This document shows, one piece after another, positions 1,506 to 26,877 of a DNA stretch of 34,373 nt. The DNA is taken from contig JALQZP010000005.1 of NCBI GenBank assembly GCA_023258235.1, positions 1-34,373 of the forward strand, given 5' to 3'. The notes beneath the pieces were generated by a model that ran no database searches, was not told the DNA's origin, and was given only the letters and a program-made list of their open reading frames with translations. A program made the position numbers and the translations under genes. The stretch is from Terrimicrobiaceae bacterium. Its GTDB lineage: Bacteria; Verrucomicrobiota; Verrucomicrobiia; Chthoniobacterales; Terrimicrobiaceae. The first letter of the stretch is position 1. Every line of letters starts with the position of its first letter.

Positions 1506-3566
1506 TTGAATTTATACACCGACAATTCCAGAGGGACGTCACACCAACGCCTCGACTTTCGCGTGGAGGCTCGTGCGACGGGCTCGAATGCGCGCGCAGC
1601 GACATTTCGCACACTGCACAACGAGGTGCGAACCCCTCTTTTTATGCCGGTGGGCACGCATGCCACGGTTAAGGCTCAATCGACGGCCTTTCTTGAGGAA
1701 TCGGGATCACAGATCCTTCTGGCAAATACCTACCATCTTCTCTTGAGGCCGGGGCCCGAGGTTTTCCGAAATGTGGGAGGGATTCACCGATTCATGAGTT
1801 GGGGAAAATCGGTGTTGACGGATTCCGGCGGCTTCCAAATTTTTTCGCTTCCCCATTCGCGATCGATGAGCGAGGAGGGCGCGGTTTTTCAAAGCTATCT
1901 CGACGGGCGCACGATTTTATTGAGCCCCGAATGCAGCATCGAAACCCAGAAGGCCATAGGAAGTGACATCATGATGGTTCTCGATCAATGTGTGCCATCC
2001 ACCGTGGATGAAAGCACGGCGCGAACGGCGATGGAGTTGACGCATCGCTGGGCCGCGCGGAGTCTTGCGGCGCGCGCCGATTCACCGCAGTCCCTCTTTG
2101 CGATCGTGCAGGGCGCGCTTTTTCCAGACCTTCGTCGAACGAGCGCGCATGCGCTTTGTGAAATGCCTTTCGATGGCTTTGCGATTGGTGGTCTTGCTGT
2201 TGGAGAGGGGAAGAGCGAGCGCGAGGACACGTGTGAATTCACCGCCGGCCTGCTGCCTCAGGATCGCCCGCGCTACCTTATGGGGGTCGGCACGCCGCTC
2301 GATATTCTCGAGGCCGTTCATCGCGGGGTGGATATGTTCGACTGCATTATCCCCACCCAAATGGCGCAGCGTGGTGGTTGCTTTACATCGCGAGGCCTCC
2401 TTCAAATGAGGCGGGGAATTTACAAGAACGCCCAAGAAGCTCTGGACCCCGATTGCGCCTGCCCGACTTGCGTTCGCTACAACAGGGCCTACTTGCACCA
2501 CCTCACGAAATGCAAGGAGACGCTGGGTTGGCAACTCCTCGGTCAACACAACATTTTCTTCTATCATCGCCTCATGCGTGAGATGCGGCAAAGCATCCTT
2601 GAGGACCGCTTTCTGGCCTTCTACAACGAAAAACGCGAGGTTCTCCAAATCGACGACATCGATAATCCCGTGACGCCGATGCGGCGCCGCCCGATCAAAA
2701 AACTCACGCTCGGCGAATACAAAATCCATACGGCTATCGAGGGTTTTTCCAGCATTTTGCATGTTTCCTCCGGAGAGATAATGCATTCGCGCACTCCGCC
2801 GATGGACGAGGCGAGGGGTCTCTATATTGAACAATCCGACCTCGCGCAGCACTTGGCTACACCGACCCCCGAGCCTCTGGTGATCTGGGATGTGGGGCTG
2901 GGAGCCGCCGCGAACGCCATGGCGGCTATTCTCATGTATGAATCCATGGCAGCGAAAGGGCCATTGCGACCGCTCCGCGTGGTGAGCTTCGAGAACGATT
3001 TGGATTCTCTCCGGCTTGCTTTCAAGCATCACGACCGCTTTCCCTATCTGCGCCATGGCGGGCCGCCAGCGATCCTCCAGCATGCGACCTGGAAGTCCAA
3101 GCAACACGCGGGCCTGGAGTGGAATCTCATCGAAGGCGACTTCCTCGCAACGATGCATCTGGCCGAGTCTCCGGATCTCATCTTTTACGATATGTTCTCG
3201 GGAAAAACCTGTGCGCCGGCGTGGACGACCGAGGCCTTCCGTGCAGTGCATGCCGCCTGCGCGGGTCGCGATGTCGAGTTGTTCACCTACACATGCTCTA
3301 CGGCCTCCCGAGTGGCCATGCTGGCGGCGGGCTTGAATGTGGCCCGTGGCCGCAATGCGGGTGACAAGGAGGAAACGACCATTGCCTTCACTCATTTGGA
3401 TAAAGGCCGCGAGAGGCAGCGGGACATACTCGGAGCCGAGTGGCTTAAAAAATGGGCGCGGTCATCGGCGAAGTTTCCTGCATCGATAGAAGCATCCGGG
3501 CATGATGCCTTCGAACAAATGATCCGCAACCACCCGCAATTTCAAGTGCGGGTGGGTAGGGAGTAG
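1506..3566 (+). CDS. tgt: tRNA-guanine(34) transglycosylase fused to a C-terminal MnmC/DUF752-like methyltransferase domain
   Basis: N-terminal half has TGT signatures (FRVEARATGSNARA, DSGGFQIFSL, GVGTPLDILEAVHRGVDMFDC, zinc site CACPTC...H). C-terminal ~270 aa has an SAM-MTase glycine motif (IWDVGLGAAANAMAA) and MnmC-type motifs (DLIFYDMFSGKTCAPAWTTEAFRAV, LFTYTCSTASRVAMLAAG). TTG start assumed. Confidence 0.88.
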   Translation: MNLYTDNSRGTSHQRLDFRVEARATGSNARAATFRTLHNEVRTPLFMPVGTHATVKAQSTAFLEESGSQILLANTYHLLLRPGPEVFRNVGGIHRFMSWGKSVLTDSGGFQIFSLPHSRSMSEEGAVFQSYLDGRTILLSPECSIETQKAIGSDIMMVLDQCVPSTVDESTARTAMELTHRWAARSLAARADSPQSLFAIVQGALFPDLRRTSAHALCEMPFDGFAIGGLAVGEGKSEREDTCEFTAGLLPQDRPRYLMGVGTPLDILEAVHRGVDMFDCIIPTQMAQRGGCFTSRGLLQMRRGIYKNAQEALDPDCACPTCVRYNRAYLHHLTKCKETLGWQLLGQHNIFFYHRLMREMRQSILEDRFLAFYNEKREVLQIDDIDNPVTPMRRRPIKKLTLGEYKIHTAIEGFSSILHVSSGEIMHSRTPPMDEARGLYIEQSDLAQHLATPTPEPLVIWDVGLGAAANAMAAILMYESMAAKGPLRPLRVVSFENDLDSLRLAFKHHDRFPYLRHGGPPAILQHATWKSKQHAGLEWNLIEGDFLATMHLAESPDLIFYDMFSGKTCAPAWTTEAFRAVHAACAGRDVELFTYTCSTASRVAMLAAGLNVARGRNAGDKEETTIAFTHLDKGRERQRDILGAEWLKKWARSSAKFPASIEASGHDAFEQMIRNHPQFQVRVGRE

Positions 3567-5305: not shown

Positions 5306-6826
5306 TTAGTAGGACTTCGCCCAAACGACGCGTTGGCGGCTGGGTTCTCCCGTGAAAGGGCAGACTCCGGCTTCAGGCGCATCGACAAACGGAATGCAGC
5401 GGATTGTAACCTTGAGATCATTTTTGATCTGTTCCTCGACGTTCGGGCTTCCGTTCCAGTGCGTGAGAGCGAATCCCCCGTGGATCTCGGGCTTGGCGGT
5501 GTTCGATGGAGTGAAGAATTGATAAAATTCCTCCTTGGTGTCGATCTGGCGCGTGTTCGCATTGCGGAAGGCAGTTGCGCGCTCAAGGAGCGCGGATTGA
5601 ATCTCATCGAGGATTTGTGGGGCCGTGGCGGGAATCTCGGCAAGCGGCAAGAAGGCTTTTTCCTTGGGTCCGCGATCACGGCGCGCAACGGCAGCGGTTC
5701 CCTGAGCGAGATCCCGGGGACCGATCTCGATGCGAATGGGAACGCCTTTTTTGATCCATTCCCAATTTTTGACTCCGCCTCCAAGATCGCGGCTATCGAC
5801 TTCCACTCCCAGCGGGGAACCGTGGTAGCTCTGTGCGCGGAGCGAAGCTGCAAGCGCCTCAGACGCTTCCAGGATGGCGGCCTTGCTATCCTCCTTCGGA
5901 GTGATCGGAACAATCACTACGTGTGTATCGGCGATGCGCGGAGGAACGACCAACCCATCATCGTCGGAATGCATCATAATGAGCGTGCCGATGAGTCGTG
6001 TGCTCACGCCCCAGCTGGTTGTCCAAGCGTGCTCGAGTTGACCGGCGCGGGATTGAAACTGGATGCCCGAAGCCTTGGAAAAATTTTGCCCCAGAAAGTG
6101 GGATGTTCCCGCTTGAATGGCCTTGCGGTCCTGAACCATGGCCTCGATGCAGTAGGTCTGTACCGCTCCAGGGAATCGCTCGCTCTCGCTTTTTTCACCG
6201 CAGAGCACGGGGAGCGCAAGAAAGTCGCGCGCAAACGTCTCATAGACACGCAGCATTTTCATGGTCTCCACTTCGGCCTCCTCGCGTGTTTCGTGGGCGG
6301 TGTGGCCTTCTTGCCAGAGAAACTCGGCCGTGCGCAGGAAAAGACGCGGACGCATCTCCCAGCGCACCACGTTGGCCCATTGGTTGAGAAGGATGGGGAG
6401 ATCGCGCCAGGATTTCACCCATCGCGCGTAGGCGGCACCAATAATGGTTTCCGACGTGGGGCGAACGACGAGTGGTTCGGAAAGCTGTCCCGCAGGCAAA
6501 AGTTTTCCATCCTTCGCCTCCAAGCGGTGATGAGTCACAACCGCGCACTCCTTGGCGAATCCCTCCACGTGGGCCGCCTCTTTTTCGAGATAGCTGAGCG
6601 GAATGAATAAAGGGAAATACGCGTTGCGGTGGCCCGTGGATTTGAACATGCCATCCAGGACTCTTTGCATCCGCTCCCAGAGCGCGTAGCCCCAAGGCTT
6701 GATGACCATGCACCCGCGGACCTCCGAGTTTTCTGCCAAATCCGAGGCCTTGATCACCTGCTGATACCATTCCGGAAAATCCTCGTCCCTTCGGGGAGTC
6801 ACTGCGGTCTGAATTTTGTCGCTCAT
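5306..6826 (-). CDS. proS: Proline--tRNA ligase, archaeal/eukaryal-type
   Basis: MSDKIQTAVTPRRDEDFPEWYQQVIKASDLAENSEVRGCMVIKPWGYALWERMQRVLD; class II motifs (VVRPTSETIIG, RWEMRPRLFLRTAEFLWQEGHTAH); C-terminus ends ...RQRVVWAKSY. The ORF-track start at 6874 is probably too long. Confidence 0.93.
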   Translation of the reverse strand: MSDKIQTAVTPRRDEDFPEWYQQVIKASDLAENSEVRGCMVIKPWGYALWERMQRVLDGMFKSTGHRNAYFPLFIPLSYLEKEAAHVEGFAKECAVVTHHRLEAKDGKLLPAGQLSEPLVVRPTSETIIGAAYARWVKSWRDLPILLNQWANVVRWEMRPRLFLRTAEFLWQEGHTAHETREEAEVETMKMLRVYETFARDFLALPVLCGEKSESERFPGAVQTYCIEAMVQDRKAIQAGTSHFLGQNFSKASGIQFQSRAGQLEHAWTTSWGVSTRLIGTLIMMHSDDDGLVVPPRIADTHVVIVPITPKEDSKAAILEASEALAASLRAQSYHGSPLGVEVDSRDLGGGVKNWEWIKKGVPIRIEIGPRDLAQGTAAVARRDRGPKEKAFLPLAEIPATAPQILDEIQSALLERATAFRNANTRQIDTKEEFYQFFTPSNTAKPEIHGGFALTHWNGSPNVEEQIKNDLKVTIRCIPFVDAPEAGVCPFTGEPSRQRVVWAKSY

Positions 6827-7255
6827 GGCGGGAAATGATTGCGAGCCCCGCCGGATCGTAAAGACCTTTTTCACGGGAAGGACGTGGTTTTTGAGATTAG
6901 CAGAGGCACCGGCACGCTGAAATCAAACAGTGGATCTGCACTTGGAGGAGATCCATTCATTGTGGCCGAAGGAGAATTCGATTTCCATGCGGCGTATTTT
7001 TAAAAACTGCAAAAGGTCTCGCTCCACGCTGGAAGCGCTTTGCAACGGACCCTCATTTATGTTGGCGCGGAAGCCCCCCAATAGTGACATTGAACATTGA
7101 TCCCAGTTGGCAAAACGCCCTCAGTTTCATTTCGGATGTGAGTAGTATGAAAAGTAGGTGGCGCAAGCATTTCGGCCCTTTCTCTCCAAAGGAAGAAACT
7201 GAATGGAGACAATTCTGGGTTGACCCCATTGGATCACTTGTTAAAAAATGAAAAA

Positions 7256-19405: not shown

Positions 19406-21085
19406 ATGTCAGCATTGAAAGAATTGATCGCCAGCTCGATCAAAAATTATCGGGAAGGCAGCATCGTCAAAGGCACCATCCTGGAAATCAGAAACCGCGA
19501 ATTTCTCGTGGACATCGGATACAAGAGCGAGGGAGTGATTCCCGCCTCGGAGTTCGACGAACCAGATCAAGTCGAAGTCGGGGACGAAGTGGAAGTCCTG
19601 CTCGAACGTCTTGAAAACGATGAGGGCATGGTCGTCCTCTCGAAAGAAAAAGCATCCCAACGTCAGAACTGGGAAAAAATCGTCGGCGTCTTCAAGGGCG
19701 ACGGGCTCATCAAGGGCAAGGTTCGCAGCGTCGTCAAAGGCGGCCTCATGGTCAACGTCGGTGTGGAAGCCTTCCTCCCCGCGTCCCAGATCGACATCGT
19801 CCCGCCGAAGGATCTCCAGCAGTTCGTCAACAACACCTACGATTTCAAAATCGTCAAAATCAACGAGGATCGCAAAAACGTCGTTCTCAGCCGCCGCGAA
19901 ATCATCGAGCAGGAACGCTCGGACAAACGCCAGACCTTCCTCAGCGGGGTCAACATCGGCGACAAAATCGTCGGCACGGTCAAAAACATCACCGACTTCG
20001 GTGCGTTCGTGGACCTCGACGGCATCGACGGCCTCCTGCATGTCACCGACATGTCCTGGGCCCGCCTCAACCATCCCGCCGAAATCCTCAAAGTCGGCCA
20101 ACAACTCACCGTTCAGGTGCTCGATATCAACAAGGACAAGGAGCGCGTTTCGCTTGGTCTCAAGCAAATGCAATCGAATCCATGGGACAAGATCGAAGAG
20201 CGCTTCCCTGTCGGACAGAAGGTCTCCGGAAAAGTCACCAACCTCATGCCCTACGGCGCCTTCGTGCAGATCGAAGACGGCGTGGAAGGCCTCATCCACG
20301 TCTCCGAACTCTCCTGGACGAAGCGCATCGCACGTCCATCCGACGTTCTCACGCTCGGCCAAGAGGTCGAAGCCGTGGTCTTGGGTGTGAACAAGGACGA
20401 GCAGAAAATCTCTCTCGGCGTTCGCCAACTCGAGCCGAATCCATGGGATGAGATCGAGCTTCGCTACATGATCGGCAAACAGGTCAAGGGCAAGGTTCGC
20501 AACATGACCGCCTATGGCGCGTTCGTGGAACTCGAAGAAGGCATCGACGGTATGATCCACGTCTCGGATCTTTCCTGGACACGCAAAATCAATCACCCGA
20601 GCGAAATGCTCAAAAAGGGCGACGATCTCGAAGCCGTGGTTCTCGACATCGACAAGGCCAACCAACGCATCAGCCTTGGTGTCAAGCAGCTCGATAACGA
20701 CCCTTGGAAAGAAATCGACAGCCGCTTCCGCATCGGCGATCTCGTCAAGGGCACGGTCAGCAAGCTCACCAACTTCGGCGCCTTCATCCAACTCCAGGAC
20801 GACATCGACGGCCTCGTGCACATCTCGCAAATCAGCGAAGACCGTGTCGAGAAAGTCAAAGACGTTCTCAAAGTTGGTCAGGAAGTGGAAGCCCGCGTCA
20901 TCAAGGTGGACAAAGCCGAGCGCCGCATCGGTCTCTCGGTCAAGGCCGCCAACTACAGCGAGGAAGCCATTCGCAAGGAGGCCGAGGCCTTCGACACGCT
21001 GCGTCCGGGCGAGGACATGGTCGGTCTCGACCAAGCCTTCCAGTTCGCGGAGGACGAATACCGTCCCGGCCAACCGAAAAAATAA
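19406..21085 (+). CDS. rpsA: 30S ribosomal protein S1
   Basis: Multiple S1 domains with repeated GAFVxLxxGIDGLxHVSxxSW motifs; six S1 repeats typical of bacterial S1. Confidence 0.97.
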   Translation: MSALKELIASSIKNYREGSIVKGTILEIRNREFLVDIGYKSEGVIPASEFDEPDQVEVGDEVEVLLERLENDEGMVVLSKEKASQRQNWEKIVGVFKGDGLIKGKVRSVVKGGLMVNVGVEAFLPASQIDIVPPKDLQQFVNNTYDFKIVKINEDRKNVVLSRREIIEQERSDKRQTFLSGVNIGDKIVGTVKNITDFGAFVDLDGIDGLLHVTDMSWARLNHPAEILKVGQQLTVQVLDINKDKERVSLGLKQMQSNPWDKIEERFPVGQKVSGKVTNLMPYGAFVQIEDGVEGLIHVSELSWTKRIARPSDVLTLGQEVEAVVLGVNKDEQKISLGVRQLEPNPWDEIELRYMIGKQVKGKVRNMTAYGAFVELEEGIDGMIHVSDLSWTRKINHPSEMLKKGDDLEAVVLDIDKANQRISLGVKQLDNDPWKEIDSRFRIGDLVKGTVSKLTNFGAFIQLQDDIDGLVHISQISEDRVEKVKDVLKVGQEVEARVIKVDKAERRIGLSVKAANYSEEAIRKEAEAFDTLRPGEDMVGLDQAFQFAEDEYRPGQPKK

Positions 21086-21124
21086 TTGCGATTCTTTCGC
21101 AATCGACGTTCGTAATTCAACACG

Positions 21125-21460
21125 ATGAACAAACCAGAAATCACAGCCTACTTGAAAACCCATTGCGGGTGGAGCCGCGGCGTTCGCGCCGTGTTTGAGA
21201 AATACGCGCTCCCCTTCACGGAGAAGGACATCATCCTGAACCCGAGTTATCGGTTCGAGATGGAGCAACTTAGCGGACAACCGCTATCACCCTGTGTGGT
21301 CATCAACGGGACCATGCTTGCCGACATCAGTGGAGAGGAAGTGGAAGCCTACATGCTCGCCAACGGGCTCGTGGGAGAAACATCCCGCGCCACCAGCGTG
21401 CCGCTCAATGCTCCCTGTTCCGACGAGGAACATGCCGCGATGGTGAATGTGAGATCCTGA
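21125..21460 (+). CDS. Glutaredoxin-like protein with CGWS motif
   Basis: MNKPEITAYLKTHCGWSRGVRAVFEKYALPFTEKDIILNPSYRFEMEQLSGQPLSPCVVINGTMLADISGEEVEAYM; thioredoxin-fold layout with cis-Pro region SPCVVING. Confidence 0.82.
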   Translation: MNKPEITAYLKTHCGWSRGVRAVFEKYALPFTEKDIILNPSYRFEMEQLSGQPLSPCVVINGTMLADISGEEVEAYMLANGLVGETSRATSVPLNAPCSDEEHAAMVNVRS

Positions 21461-21504: not shown

Positions 21505-21540
21505 AAGACCGCTGCGATCAATGATCGCAGCGGTCTTTTT
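21505..21540 (+). terminator. Rho-independent terminator
   Basis: aagaccgctgcgatcaatgatcgcagcggtctttttctttg: perfect GC-rich inverted repeat followed by a T-run; downstream of the glutaredoxin gene. Confidence 0.92.
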
Positions 21541-21586
21541 CTTTGATTTTTCAGCCCTTCGCCTATGGTGGCATTGTCATTTTCGC

Positions 21587-22681
21587 GTGAAAAAAAAGAT
21601 CAAAAAAACCGCACCTGTCCGCCGAGCCGAGGGGCCTCATTCGCGCGACCGGCGGTTGGTTTTGATCGATCAAATCCCGCTGCGGCGCGAGGCCGAAAAA
21701 AAAGCGCTCAAAGGTCTGCGTGAAACGGTCCGCTTGCGCGAAACCGTTGTCGAATACGAGCGCCAGATCCTGCCGGAGTATGTGCGTTGGGAGAACGAAA
21801 CGGTGGGAACACTCCTCGCCGAAGAGCGCGTCTTGGAGGCCAAGCTCCGGGAATTGACGCGCATCCTCGAGGCTGTGGACTACGAGACGCTTTTCTACGA
21901 CACCAGTCCGCAGCAGGCCTACAAAGAAGTCATGAGGGAAATGAAGCGGGCCGAAGACAATCAGCGCCGGGCCGAGGCGAGAGGATTCGAGGATGAGCCT
22001 AGAGACCCCGAGGAAGAGTGGGACGAGGAGGCTGGCTACTCGGACAACGAGCGCGCCTTTCGAAGTTTCCTACGGAGGGCCGTCGGCATCGACCCCGACT
22101 TCCTGACCAAAAGGGAATACAAAAAACGCCTTGCGGAATTTTTGGAAAAAATGGGCGCGGTTGGGTCTTCCTGGCGTCCCAATCCGGACGAGTCTGATAT
22201 CGATTCGCGCGTGAAGGAACTCTACCGCGTGCTCGTCCGCCGCCTGCATCCCGATACCGGGGCGTCGGTGCGGCGCGATCCCCTGATGGCCCAACTCTGG
22301 CACGATCTTCAGGACGCCTACGCAAAAAGGGACGCCGAGCAATTGGAGCTTCTTCTTGCCATGACCGATCTGCACGAGGGACATGGGGGCATGAAAAGCA
22401 CGCTCTTCCACATGCGTCGTGCGGCGAGCGAGTTCATGCGCCGTTCCCGCGAGTTGAAAGGCCGCCTGCGCGAGATCCGCACAACGGAGGCATGGGTCTT
22501 TTGGCACACACCCGACCGCGGCAAACTCGCCGTCAAACTCAAGGCCGAAGTCGAAGCCCGGGTGAAAATCGCCCGCAAAAAAATCGCCGAATGCGAGGCG
22601 GAAATCGAAATTCTCAAATCCCCTGCTCGCAAAAGAAAAACCAAATACAATCCCCTCGGGCAGGATTACTTTGATTTCTAG
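21587..22681 (+). CDS. Charged coiled-coil protein with J-domain-like HPD segment
   Basis: Likely GTG start at 21587 (after the terminator) rather than 21521. Segment VKELYRVLVRRLHPDTGASVRRDPLMAQLWHDLQDAYAKRDAEQLELLLAM looks like J-domain helices II-III with HPD. Confidence 0.65.
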   Translation: MKKKIKKTAPVRRAEGPHSRDRRLVLIDQIPLRREAEKKALKGLRETVRLRETVVEYERQILPEYVRWENETVGTLLAEERVLEAKLRELTRILEAVDYETLFYDTSPQQAYKEVMREMKRAEDNQRRAEARGFEDEPRDPEEEWDEEAGYSDNERAFRSFLRRAVGIDPDFLTKREYKKRLAEFLEKMGAVGSSWRPNPDESDIDSRVKELYRVLVRRLHPDTGASVRRDPLMAQLWHDLQDAYAKRDAEQLELLLAMTDLHEGHGGMKSTLFHMRRAASEFMRRSRELKGRLREIRTTEAWVFWHTPDRGKLAVKLKAEVEARVKIARKKIAECEAEIEILKSPARKRKTKYNPLGQDYFDF

Positions 22682-24900: not shown

Positions 24901-26877
24901 TTATTTGAGAATGGTTTTGCCGAGTTCGGTGACTTTGGCGACGAGGATCTCGCTTCCCGGGGATGCATCCAGCGCGGATAGATAAAGCGCCAAGGCTTGG
25001 CCCCGTTTTCCCTTTCGCTCCTGTTCGATAGCGCTGTTGTAATCCGATATGAACCGGGGACACTTGCCCGTAACCTTGGCTTTTCTGTCCGCGACGCGAG
25101 AATCCGCCGCAGAGGCCGAATCAAGATCGTACAATACCATCCAAACCTCAGGGTAGGCGGAGCGCCTCTCAAGGGCGTCGCATTTTTCGAGGCTGGCGCG
25201 GAGGTTTTTTTCCCGCTCCACAAGGACTTCATACTTGGCTTTGAGTTCGGGATCCGAACCCTGCCCGACAAGAGCCGCAAATTCACTCATTCTTTCGAAG
25301 GCGGCTTTGTGGTCCTGAGCTTTCACAACAAGCTTGAGCGCGTCGAGGGTCTCGTTTTTCGCTTCAAGCGTCTTGATTTCTTCGAGCGTGGAATTCTGGA
25401 TATCTTCAATTTTCTTCTTCAAATCCGGATTGAGAGGGTCGCGCCCGATCGCAGCCGCAACGAGGGTATCTGCGGATTTTTTGTCGCGCATCTTCATGGC
25501 AACATGAGCTTGTTGAGCCCAGTGCAGCGCCTTGCGGGGATGCTCGGCAGCAAACGTTTTGAGATCGGCCATGCCTGAATCCACGCTCGTTTTCTCGATT
25601 TCGTCAGCCAGTTCCGCTATTTTAGGATAGTCCTTGGAATTAACCGCATCGGAAATCATTTTGATGTTTTGTCCAAACAGCCGGATGCGCTGCCTGTCAC
25701 TGTAGGGGATGGTCTGAAGCTCGGGTTGGTATTTGGCCGTCAGCACCATTTTTCTGAGCGTGCTTTCTGCCGCTCCAAGCTGATTTTCGCGAAGCATATT
25801 GTCGATGGATTGACGGTCTTTGGTGGCGTCACGAATGCGGTTGAGCAGGAATGCTTCGAGGCCTGTGATAGTCGAAATATAGGGGATCTTTGGCGTAGCA
25901 CCCGCTCCTTCGGAGCCTTTACCTGTGTCTTTTTGGGAACCTCCCGAAGAACCTGCGGGGTAAGCCTGCTGGCTCAGGGCCAGATCGCCACCTTTGAAGG
26001 AATTGCGGTAAAAACCACATGCAATCAGGGCGTGGATGTAGCGTTGTTGAGCGGCCAACTCGACAATGAGTTGTTGAAACTGAAGTTTTCTGGCCTCGGC
26101 AGTAACAAGATGGGAAAGCGATTTTTTTTCATTTTCAAGGGCGGCGATGCGGCCCTTCACCTCCTCGAGTTGTTCTTCGATGAAGCGGCGCTCGTCCTCG
26201 GTTCCGAGTTGCTTGCCGGTAAGAGGGTTGACATCATAGGTCATTTTCAAATTCCACTCGAGGCGCTTGCGTTCTTTATCCAAAGTATCGAGTTCTTTCC
26301 CGATCGCGATGGTGCGCTGCCTGTCATCAACCCGTCCTCCGGTCAGCGACGAAAGGTGTCCACGGATTGTGCGGCACAGATCGTCGTCCTCCGCATATCC
26401 AGAAAGTTCCATAAGTTTTTGTGAGGCACGCTCTGGGTTCGATGTGTCTCCGATGGAGCGTGTCCGATAGGGGCTCTCCGGCGTGAGATCATTAAGCACA
26501 CCCTTGAGGAGAGCATAATAGGCGTCGCTCTTTTGAATGTCCCCCGCATTGGCGCTAATGAAGGTTCGATAGTCCGAAGGCAGGCTGGCTGGGGTCATGC
26601 CTGCGATGGAAGTTTCCGCGAGCTTGAGCTGGAGTTTGGCCGTCTGTTCCCGGAAATCTCTTTCCTCGCTTGTAAGCTTGGCTGTCTCGTCGGCGAGACG
26701 AAGGCGCTCCAATTCCACATTCTCAAACGTGTTTAATACCACGGGCTGATTCATGATCGGGCCTGCGCCAGGTACACCCGGTGGAAGATTGCCAGAGGGA
26801 TTTTGAGCCGAGGAAAGACCAGTACCGAGAAGGAATACCACCGCAATGAAGACGGGCGCTTTTTTGTTTTCTCTCAT
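24901..26877 (-). CDS. Exported helical/coiled-coil protein, function unknown
   Basis: Signal peptide (APVFIAVVFLLGTGLSSAQ), long charged helical segments, TPR-like C-terminal region (DYNSAIEQERKGKRGQALALYLSALDASPGSE). Confidence 0.75.
   Translation of the reverse strand: MRENKKAPVFIAVVFLLGTGLSSAQNPSGNLPPGVPGAGPIMNQPVVLNTFENVELERLRLADETAKLTSEERDFREQTAKLQLKLAETSIAGMTPASLPSDYRTFISANAGDIQKSDAYYALLKGVLNDLTPESPYRTRSIGDTSNPERASQKLMELSGYAEDDDLCRTIRGHLSSLTGGRVDDRQRTIAIGKELDTLDKERKRLEWNLKMTYDVNPLTGKQLGTEDERRFIEEQLEEVKGRIAALENEKKSLSHLVTAEARKLQFQQLIVELAAQQRYIHALIACGFYRNSFKGGDLALSQQAYPAGSSGGSQKDTGKGSEGAGATPKIPYISTITGLEAFLLNRIRDATKDRQSIDNMLRENQLGAAESTLRKMVLTAKYQPELQTIPYSDRQRIRLFGQNIKMISDAVNSKDYPKIAELADEIEKTSVDSGMADLKTFAAEHPRKALHWAQQAHVAMKMRDKKSADTLVAAAIGRDPLNPDLKKKIEDIQNSTLEEIKTLEAKNETLDALKLVVKAQDHKAAFERMSEFAALVGQGSDPELKAKYEVLVEREKNLRASLEKCDALERRSAYPEVWMVLYDLDSASAADSRVADRKAKVTGKCPRFISDYNSAIEQERKGKRGQALALYLSALDASPGSEILVAKVTELGKTILK

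Follow-up and report, generated by a model that had tools for sequence, protein, structure and literature searches.

The window, the whole 34,373-nucleotide stretch of DNA analysed here, carries a gene that joins a tRNA-guanine transglycosylase (hereafter TGT2) to a SAM methyltransferase (MTase) related to MnmC2 (Table 1). An earlier note on this DNA had described a TGT fused to an MnmC/DUF752-like methyltransferase in one continuous 686-aa frame, with the FAD oxidoreductase half of MnmC absent, and this description is borne out. Translation of ORF 1506-3566 (+) yields 686 codons with no internal stop. Pfam TGT (PF01702) matches residues 28-377 at 461 bits (E=3.1e-138), Pfam Methyltransf_30 (PF05430) matches residues 537-627 at 37.2 bits (E=3.1e-9; gathering cut-off 22), and Pfam and NCBIfam scans of the ORF detect no FAD-oxidase half. 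The NCBIfam Tgt model (TIGR00430) scores the fusion protein at 443 bits, above its cut-off of 306.75, and the NCBIfam MnmC2 model (NF033855) matches residues 422-628 at 58 bits, under its equivalog cut-off of 136.

Table 1. Features of the fusion gene, in window coordinates.
Feature	Position	Strand	Basis or remark
TGT2-MTase fusion gene	1506..3566	+	686 aa; TTG start uncertain
TGT (PF01702) domain, residues 28-377	1587..2636	+	Pfam match and structural match
D106 = Z. mobilis D102 (catalytic Asp)	1821..1823	+	invariant in 87 fused TGTs
DCIIPTQMAQRG: D279 = nucleophile D280, kept; Q285 = R286, Q288 = R289	2340..2375	+	alignment
Zinc ligands C317, C319, C322, H348 = Z. mobilis C318, C320, C323, H349	2454..2549	+	alignment
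Inter-domain linker	2637..2708	+	domain spacing nearly constant across the family
MnmC2-like (Methyltransf_30) SAM methyltransferase, residues 422-628	2769..3389	+	Pfam, NCBIfam, profile, fold
SAM-binding motif WDVGLGAAANA	2886..2918	+	alignment
Motif D562-M-F-S-G-K-T, aligned to MnmC D-G/A-F-A/S-P	3189..3209	+	alignment
Conserved C-terminal tail W..RW.RS..KFP...HPQF	3423..3545	+	missing from MnmL-fused MnmC2 proteins

Homologues begin near MS.SRL.F, and the first 13 residues of the fusion protein fall below a pLDDT of 50 in the predicted model. The full-length model (pLDDT 89.7) is confident for each domain, and at a pTM of 0.63 it places TGT2 relative to the MTase with low confidence. The distance between the DMFD and GE.MH motifs is 146-151 aa across fused proteins from independently assembled genomes. 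An assembly chimera is ruled out because the same domain order and near-constant spacing recur in many independent assemblies, including that of Chthoniobacter flavus Ellin428. This gene, which joins a second TGT to a methyltransferase related to MnmC2, is a real and conserved fusion.

A tRNA-Pro(GGG) gene (1260-1335) and a prolyl-tRNA synthetase gene (5306-6874) flank the fusion gene. This pair was considered as a hint to the target tRNA and dropped, as this tRNA is not a conserved neighbour of the fusion gene in relatives. No conserved gene neighbourhood was found around the fusion gene, which is solitary. Elsewhere in the window, the ORFs at 19409-21280, 21521-22681 and 24901-26877 (623, 386 and 658 aa) have no Pfam match.

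Distribution and the companion canonical TGT

The TGT-MTase architecture occurs in 15 of the 289 searched genomes of the window's phylum, with an intact MTase in 12 and a shortened one in three, all of one genus. A pattern-based search of GTDB genomes using the MTase profile returned 519 encoding stretches; the best 80 of these are mostly single frames with both domains, apart from hits at contig ends, a single broken frame and three unfused MTases. Within Verrucomicrobiota, across which the fusion is conserved, record names place it in Chthoniobacterales/Spartobacteria, Opitutae and Verrucomicrobiales. Scattered copies are labelled Kofleriaceae (Myxococcota), Oligoflexia (Bdellovibrionota) and Acidobacteriota; these nest inside the TGT2 tree and therefore represent transfers or binning errors. 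The earlier note had allowed that the architecture might prove both common and already characterised. Genome surveys establish the former. As for the latter, no paper describing a TGT2-MTase architecture was found in the literature searched, whose scope lay mostly outside subscription journals.

The TGT in the fusion is usually the second in its genome. A canonical TGT is also present in 39 of the 42 fusion genomes examined: all 15 from the phylum survey, which encode QueA and QueF as well, and 24 of 27 further genomes, the remaining three being draft MAGs. In the window's own genome the canonical gene lies on a separate contig (C222). No relative lacking the fusion has more than one TGT. The fused proteins group as a single clade (100/100) in a tree of 56 TGTs, and a long branch sets this clade apart from the canonical Verrucomicrobiota TGTs and from Zymomonas mobilis (Z. 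mobilis) TGT. Because the scored fused proteins pass the TIGR00430 cut-off, automated annotation is expected to report plain 'Tgt', a label that would hide both the MTase and the two-TGT state of the genome.

The transglycosylase half

In fold, the TGT-domain model matches the Z. mobilis enzyme (TM-score 0.94, normalised by target length), to which TGT2 is 46% identical. Residues were tallied in 87 fused and 29 canonical TGTs, with Z. mobilis numbering. D102, S103, D156, C158, Q203, G230, L231, A232, V233, E235, Y258, M260 and D280 are kept in 100% of the fused sequences, and the CCCH zinc ligands in 87/87. Swaps at C158 and V233 are determinants of preQ1 versus queuine use (PMC3660597). The catalytic, zinc and preQ1-pocket residues of bacterial Tgt (TIGR00430) are thus all common to TGT2, which, judging from the alignment, apparently has an intact active site for transglycosylation, with a pocket of the preQ1 type. 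The dN/dS of TGT2 is 0.01-0.05 (four pairs scored, three within one genus).

Unlike the bacterial Tgt of Z. mobilis and E. coli, TGT2 is a second paralogue, is fused to an MTase and has lost three otherwise constant residues. R286 is Arg in 29/29 canonical TGTs and is replaced in 87/87 fused ones by Q or K, rarely by S or A. R289, likewise Arg in 29/29 canonical sequences, is Q or K in about 99% of the fused set, and E157, invariant in the canonical set, gives way to Q or H and rarely to R. In the Z. mobilis TGT-RNA structure work (1Q2R/1Q2S), R286 and R289 reportedly contact U33/U35 of the anticodon loop.

The methyltransferase half

For the METHYLTRANSFERASE, a profile search that hits Aquifex MnmC2 (3VYW) at E=9e-15 also finds E. 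coli MnmC, and the model of the domain (pLDDT 92.7, pTM 0.91) has 3VYW and E. coli MnmC as its top fold matches. Membership in some other MTase family, which the earlier note had named as a way in which its assignment could fail, is excluded, as the nearest relatives by both sequence and fold are MnmC2 and MnmC. On its sequence, the MTase half is an MnmC2-fold SAM methyltransferase that keeps the active-site aspartate. It shares the SAM MTase fold and the D-x-F-S and core motifs with MnmC2/DUF752, as represented by Aquifex 3VYW and the MTase half of E. coli MnmC. The Asp of the D-x-F motif is kept throughout the intact fusion family, and the Phe varies in two members.

The fused MTases nonetheless depart from MnmC2 in several respects. 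Motif I reads GLGAA rather than GFGLG, the NPELW (N-P-E/D-L/M-W) motif after the catalytic Asp is lost, and a new C-terminal tail is present. All fused-family MTases that were scored reach 58-85 bits, under the MnmC2 equivalog cut-off of 136. The fusion partner differs as well, being TGT2 in place of the FAD oxidase of E. coli MnmC. In an MTase tree for which every second fused sequence was used and 21 loci were left out, the TGT-fused set forms one clade (100/100), far from the MnmL-fused MnmC2 of the phylum.

The two halves also occur apart. Three genomes (L092/L120 and L116) encode the MTase without TGT2 and have only a canonical TGT. These free MTases nest within the fused clade, modestly supported in the case of L116 (83/63), so two losses of TGT2 apparently left the MTase in place; because two apparently independent lineages keep it alone, the MTase is not strictly dependent on TGT2. 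On its own, the MTase could act either on preQ1-tRNA supplied by the canonical TGT or on nm5U34. In the genus with the shortened MTase (L015-L017), TGT2 is conserved and the MTase lacks its C-terminal part and catalytic motif, with some constraint still seen in what remains (dN/dS). The halves are therefore separable in both directions, and a strict assembly line is not required.

Companion U34 enzymes

MnmM (YtqB, PF06962) methylates the 5-aminomethyl group of nm5(s2)U34, a reaction like that of MnmC2 carried out by a different MTase family. Its gene is distinct from the fusion and occurs alongside it in 10 of the 39 genomes with an intact fusion; two copies were scored, at 188 and 206 bits, both over the equivalog cut-off of 135. 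In G302, G303 and G304 the neighbour of MnmM encodes an MnmC1-like FAD protein, which likewise speaks against a plain mnm5U role for the fused MTase. No MnmM was found in the window's own genome, and most fusion genomes also lack it. The genus with the decayed MTase has MnmM. Mutual exclusion between the fusion and MnmM, which would have supported an mnm5U role, was not seen: MnmM is no rarer in fusion genomes than in non-fusion relatives (Fisher p = 0.60 and 1.0, indicative only, as the genomes are related).

MnmL scores over its cut-off in none of the 15 fusion genomes and in 8/8 sampled genomes whose MnmC2 is free or fused to MnmL. MnmC1 scores over its cut-off in none of 40 genomes, including that of the window (G000), and every genome sampled for MnmG has it. 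The standalone MnmC2 of Aquifex can act on nm5U. With ammonium, E. coli MnmEG can form nm5U in the absence of an oxidase, and MnmC(m) by itself accepts nm5U as substrate (PMC3936742). Given this ammonium route and the standalone MnmC2 activity, missing MnmL and MnmC1 would still permit mnm5U. An nm5U methyltransferase role for the fused MTase should, though, make a coexisting MnmM redundant. A substrate other than nm5U34 is favoured because MnmM coexists with the fusion and MnmL is absent.

Other classes of the phylum encode a radical-SAM MnmL fused to an MnmC2 domain (L018-L032, e.g. L019:568-2331), a one-chain form of the last two mnm5U34 steps. Here, too, an MnmC2-type MTase is joined to a wobble-modification enzyme, but the partner is MnmL of the U34 pathway and the MTase belongs to a distant clade.

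Proposed reaction

MnmC2 converts an aminomethyl to a methylaminomethyl group at a wobble base (nm5U34). The TGT product preQ1 fits as an MTase substrate because it bears a matching aminomethyl group. In the reading preferred here, to which we assign a probability of roughly 0.4, TGT2 is a second, ancient, neofunctionalised TGT paralogue in a bifunctional tRNA-modifying enzyme that inserts preQ1 and then N-methylates its aminomethyl group. TGT2 would exchange a target guanine, probably G34, for preQ1; the tRNAs concerned may be only some of the GUN tRNAs or a different set. The C-terminal MTase would then methylate the nitrogen of the exposed 7-aminomethyl group. The predicted product is 7-(methylaminomethyl)-7-deazaguanosine (N-methyl-preQ1), and its methylation would bar the tRNA from the QueA/queuosine branch, which the canonical TGT feeds. 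The MnmL-MnmC2 fusions offer an analogy, in which the MTase family appears joined to the preceding pathway step much as proposed here. A broader version is more tentative: the tRNAs selected by the second TGT might carry N-methyl-preQ1 at position 34, forming a branch that draws preQ1-tRNA away from queuosine, possibly across hundreds of bacterial species.

The main alternative is that a single chain carries two wobble activities, TGT2 placing preQ1 on G34 tRNAs and an ordinary MnmC2 converting nm5U34, made by MnmEG with ammonium, to mnm5U34. The family and fold of the MTase fit such an arrangement, as do the ubiquitous MnmG, the survival of the MTase alone in two lineages, the MnmM of the decayed-MTase genus, which is present as if it had relieved the MTase, and the ammonium route to nm5U in E. 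coli (PMC3936742). Yet every scored MTase falls short of the MnmC2 cut-off, a long branch separates the fused MTases from the MnmL-fused MnmC2, MnmL never accompanies the fusion in the phylum survey, and MnmM is no rarer among genomes with intact fusions than in relatives without them. Such a fusion would also gain little, because G34 and U34 never occur on the same tRNA, and we consider this alternative rather unlikely. The earlier note had proposed either two wobble activities or a new MTase target; the second TGT, the replaced Arg and the frequent separate MnmM favour the new target. That note had missed the second-TGT status, the replaced anticodon-loop arginines and the frequency of a separate nm5U methyltransferase.

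A new target need not be the preQ1 amine. The MTase might methylate another anticodon-loop position, in base or backbone, of the tRNA held by TGT2, and altered substrate geometry is suggested by the replaced residues presumed to contact the anticodon and by the lost N-P-E/D-L/M-W motif. We hold this to be unlikely, since the fused MTases retain the active-site Asp motif, by which MnmC holds the amine, and the MTase family is specialised in amine N-methylation. More improbable still is that TGT2 exchanges no base and acts as a tRNA-docking module, or as a partner subunit of the canonical TGT in the manner of QTRT2 for QTRT1. The loss of Arg residues invariant in canonical TGTs and the presence of a canonical TGT in nearly all fusion genomes are consistent with a docking or partner role, but all 87 sequences conserve the nucleophile, the general acid/base, the zinc site and the preQ1 pocket without exception, the dN/dS of TGT2 is low in the few pairs scored, and the three draft MAGs show no TGT other than the fused one.

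On the preferred reading, preQ1 insertion followed by N-methylation, the fusion probably makes a tRNA building block absent from the papers found; the predicted N-methyl-preQ1 tRNA nucleoside was not found in the papers searched. N-methylated 7-aminomethyl-7-deazaguanine has reportedly been found in phage DNA. This is the same predicted chemical product, although in DNA and not in tRNA. A search for phage relatives of the fused MTase found none, and a phage relative linking the MTase to N-methyl-preQ1 in DNA was dropped as a candidate. If the proposal is true, preQ1 in tRNA would have a new fate apart from queuosine, and an nm5U-type N-methyltransferase would have been recruited to a deazapurine.

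MnmM gene pairs in Verrucomicrobiota

MnmM lies beside an MnmC1-like FAD oxidoreductase at five Verrucomicrobiota loci (L174:5208-6871, L175:383-2219, L176:2930-4498, L177:2649-4401 and L178:2767-4442). The gene pair is likely a two-gene counterpart of MnmC. At L174, a canonical tgt lies near the pair on the same strand.
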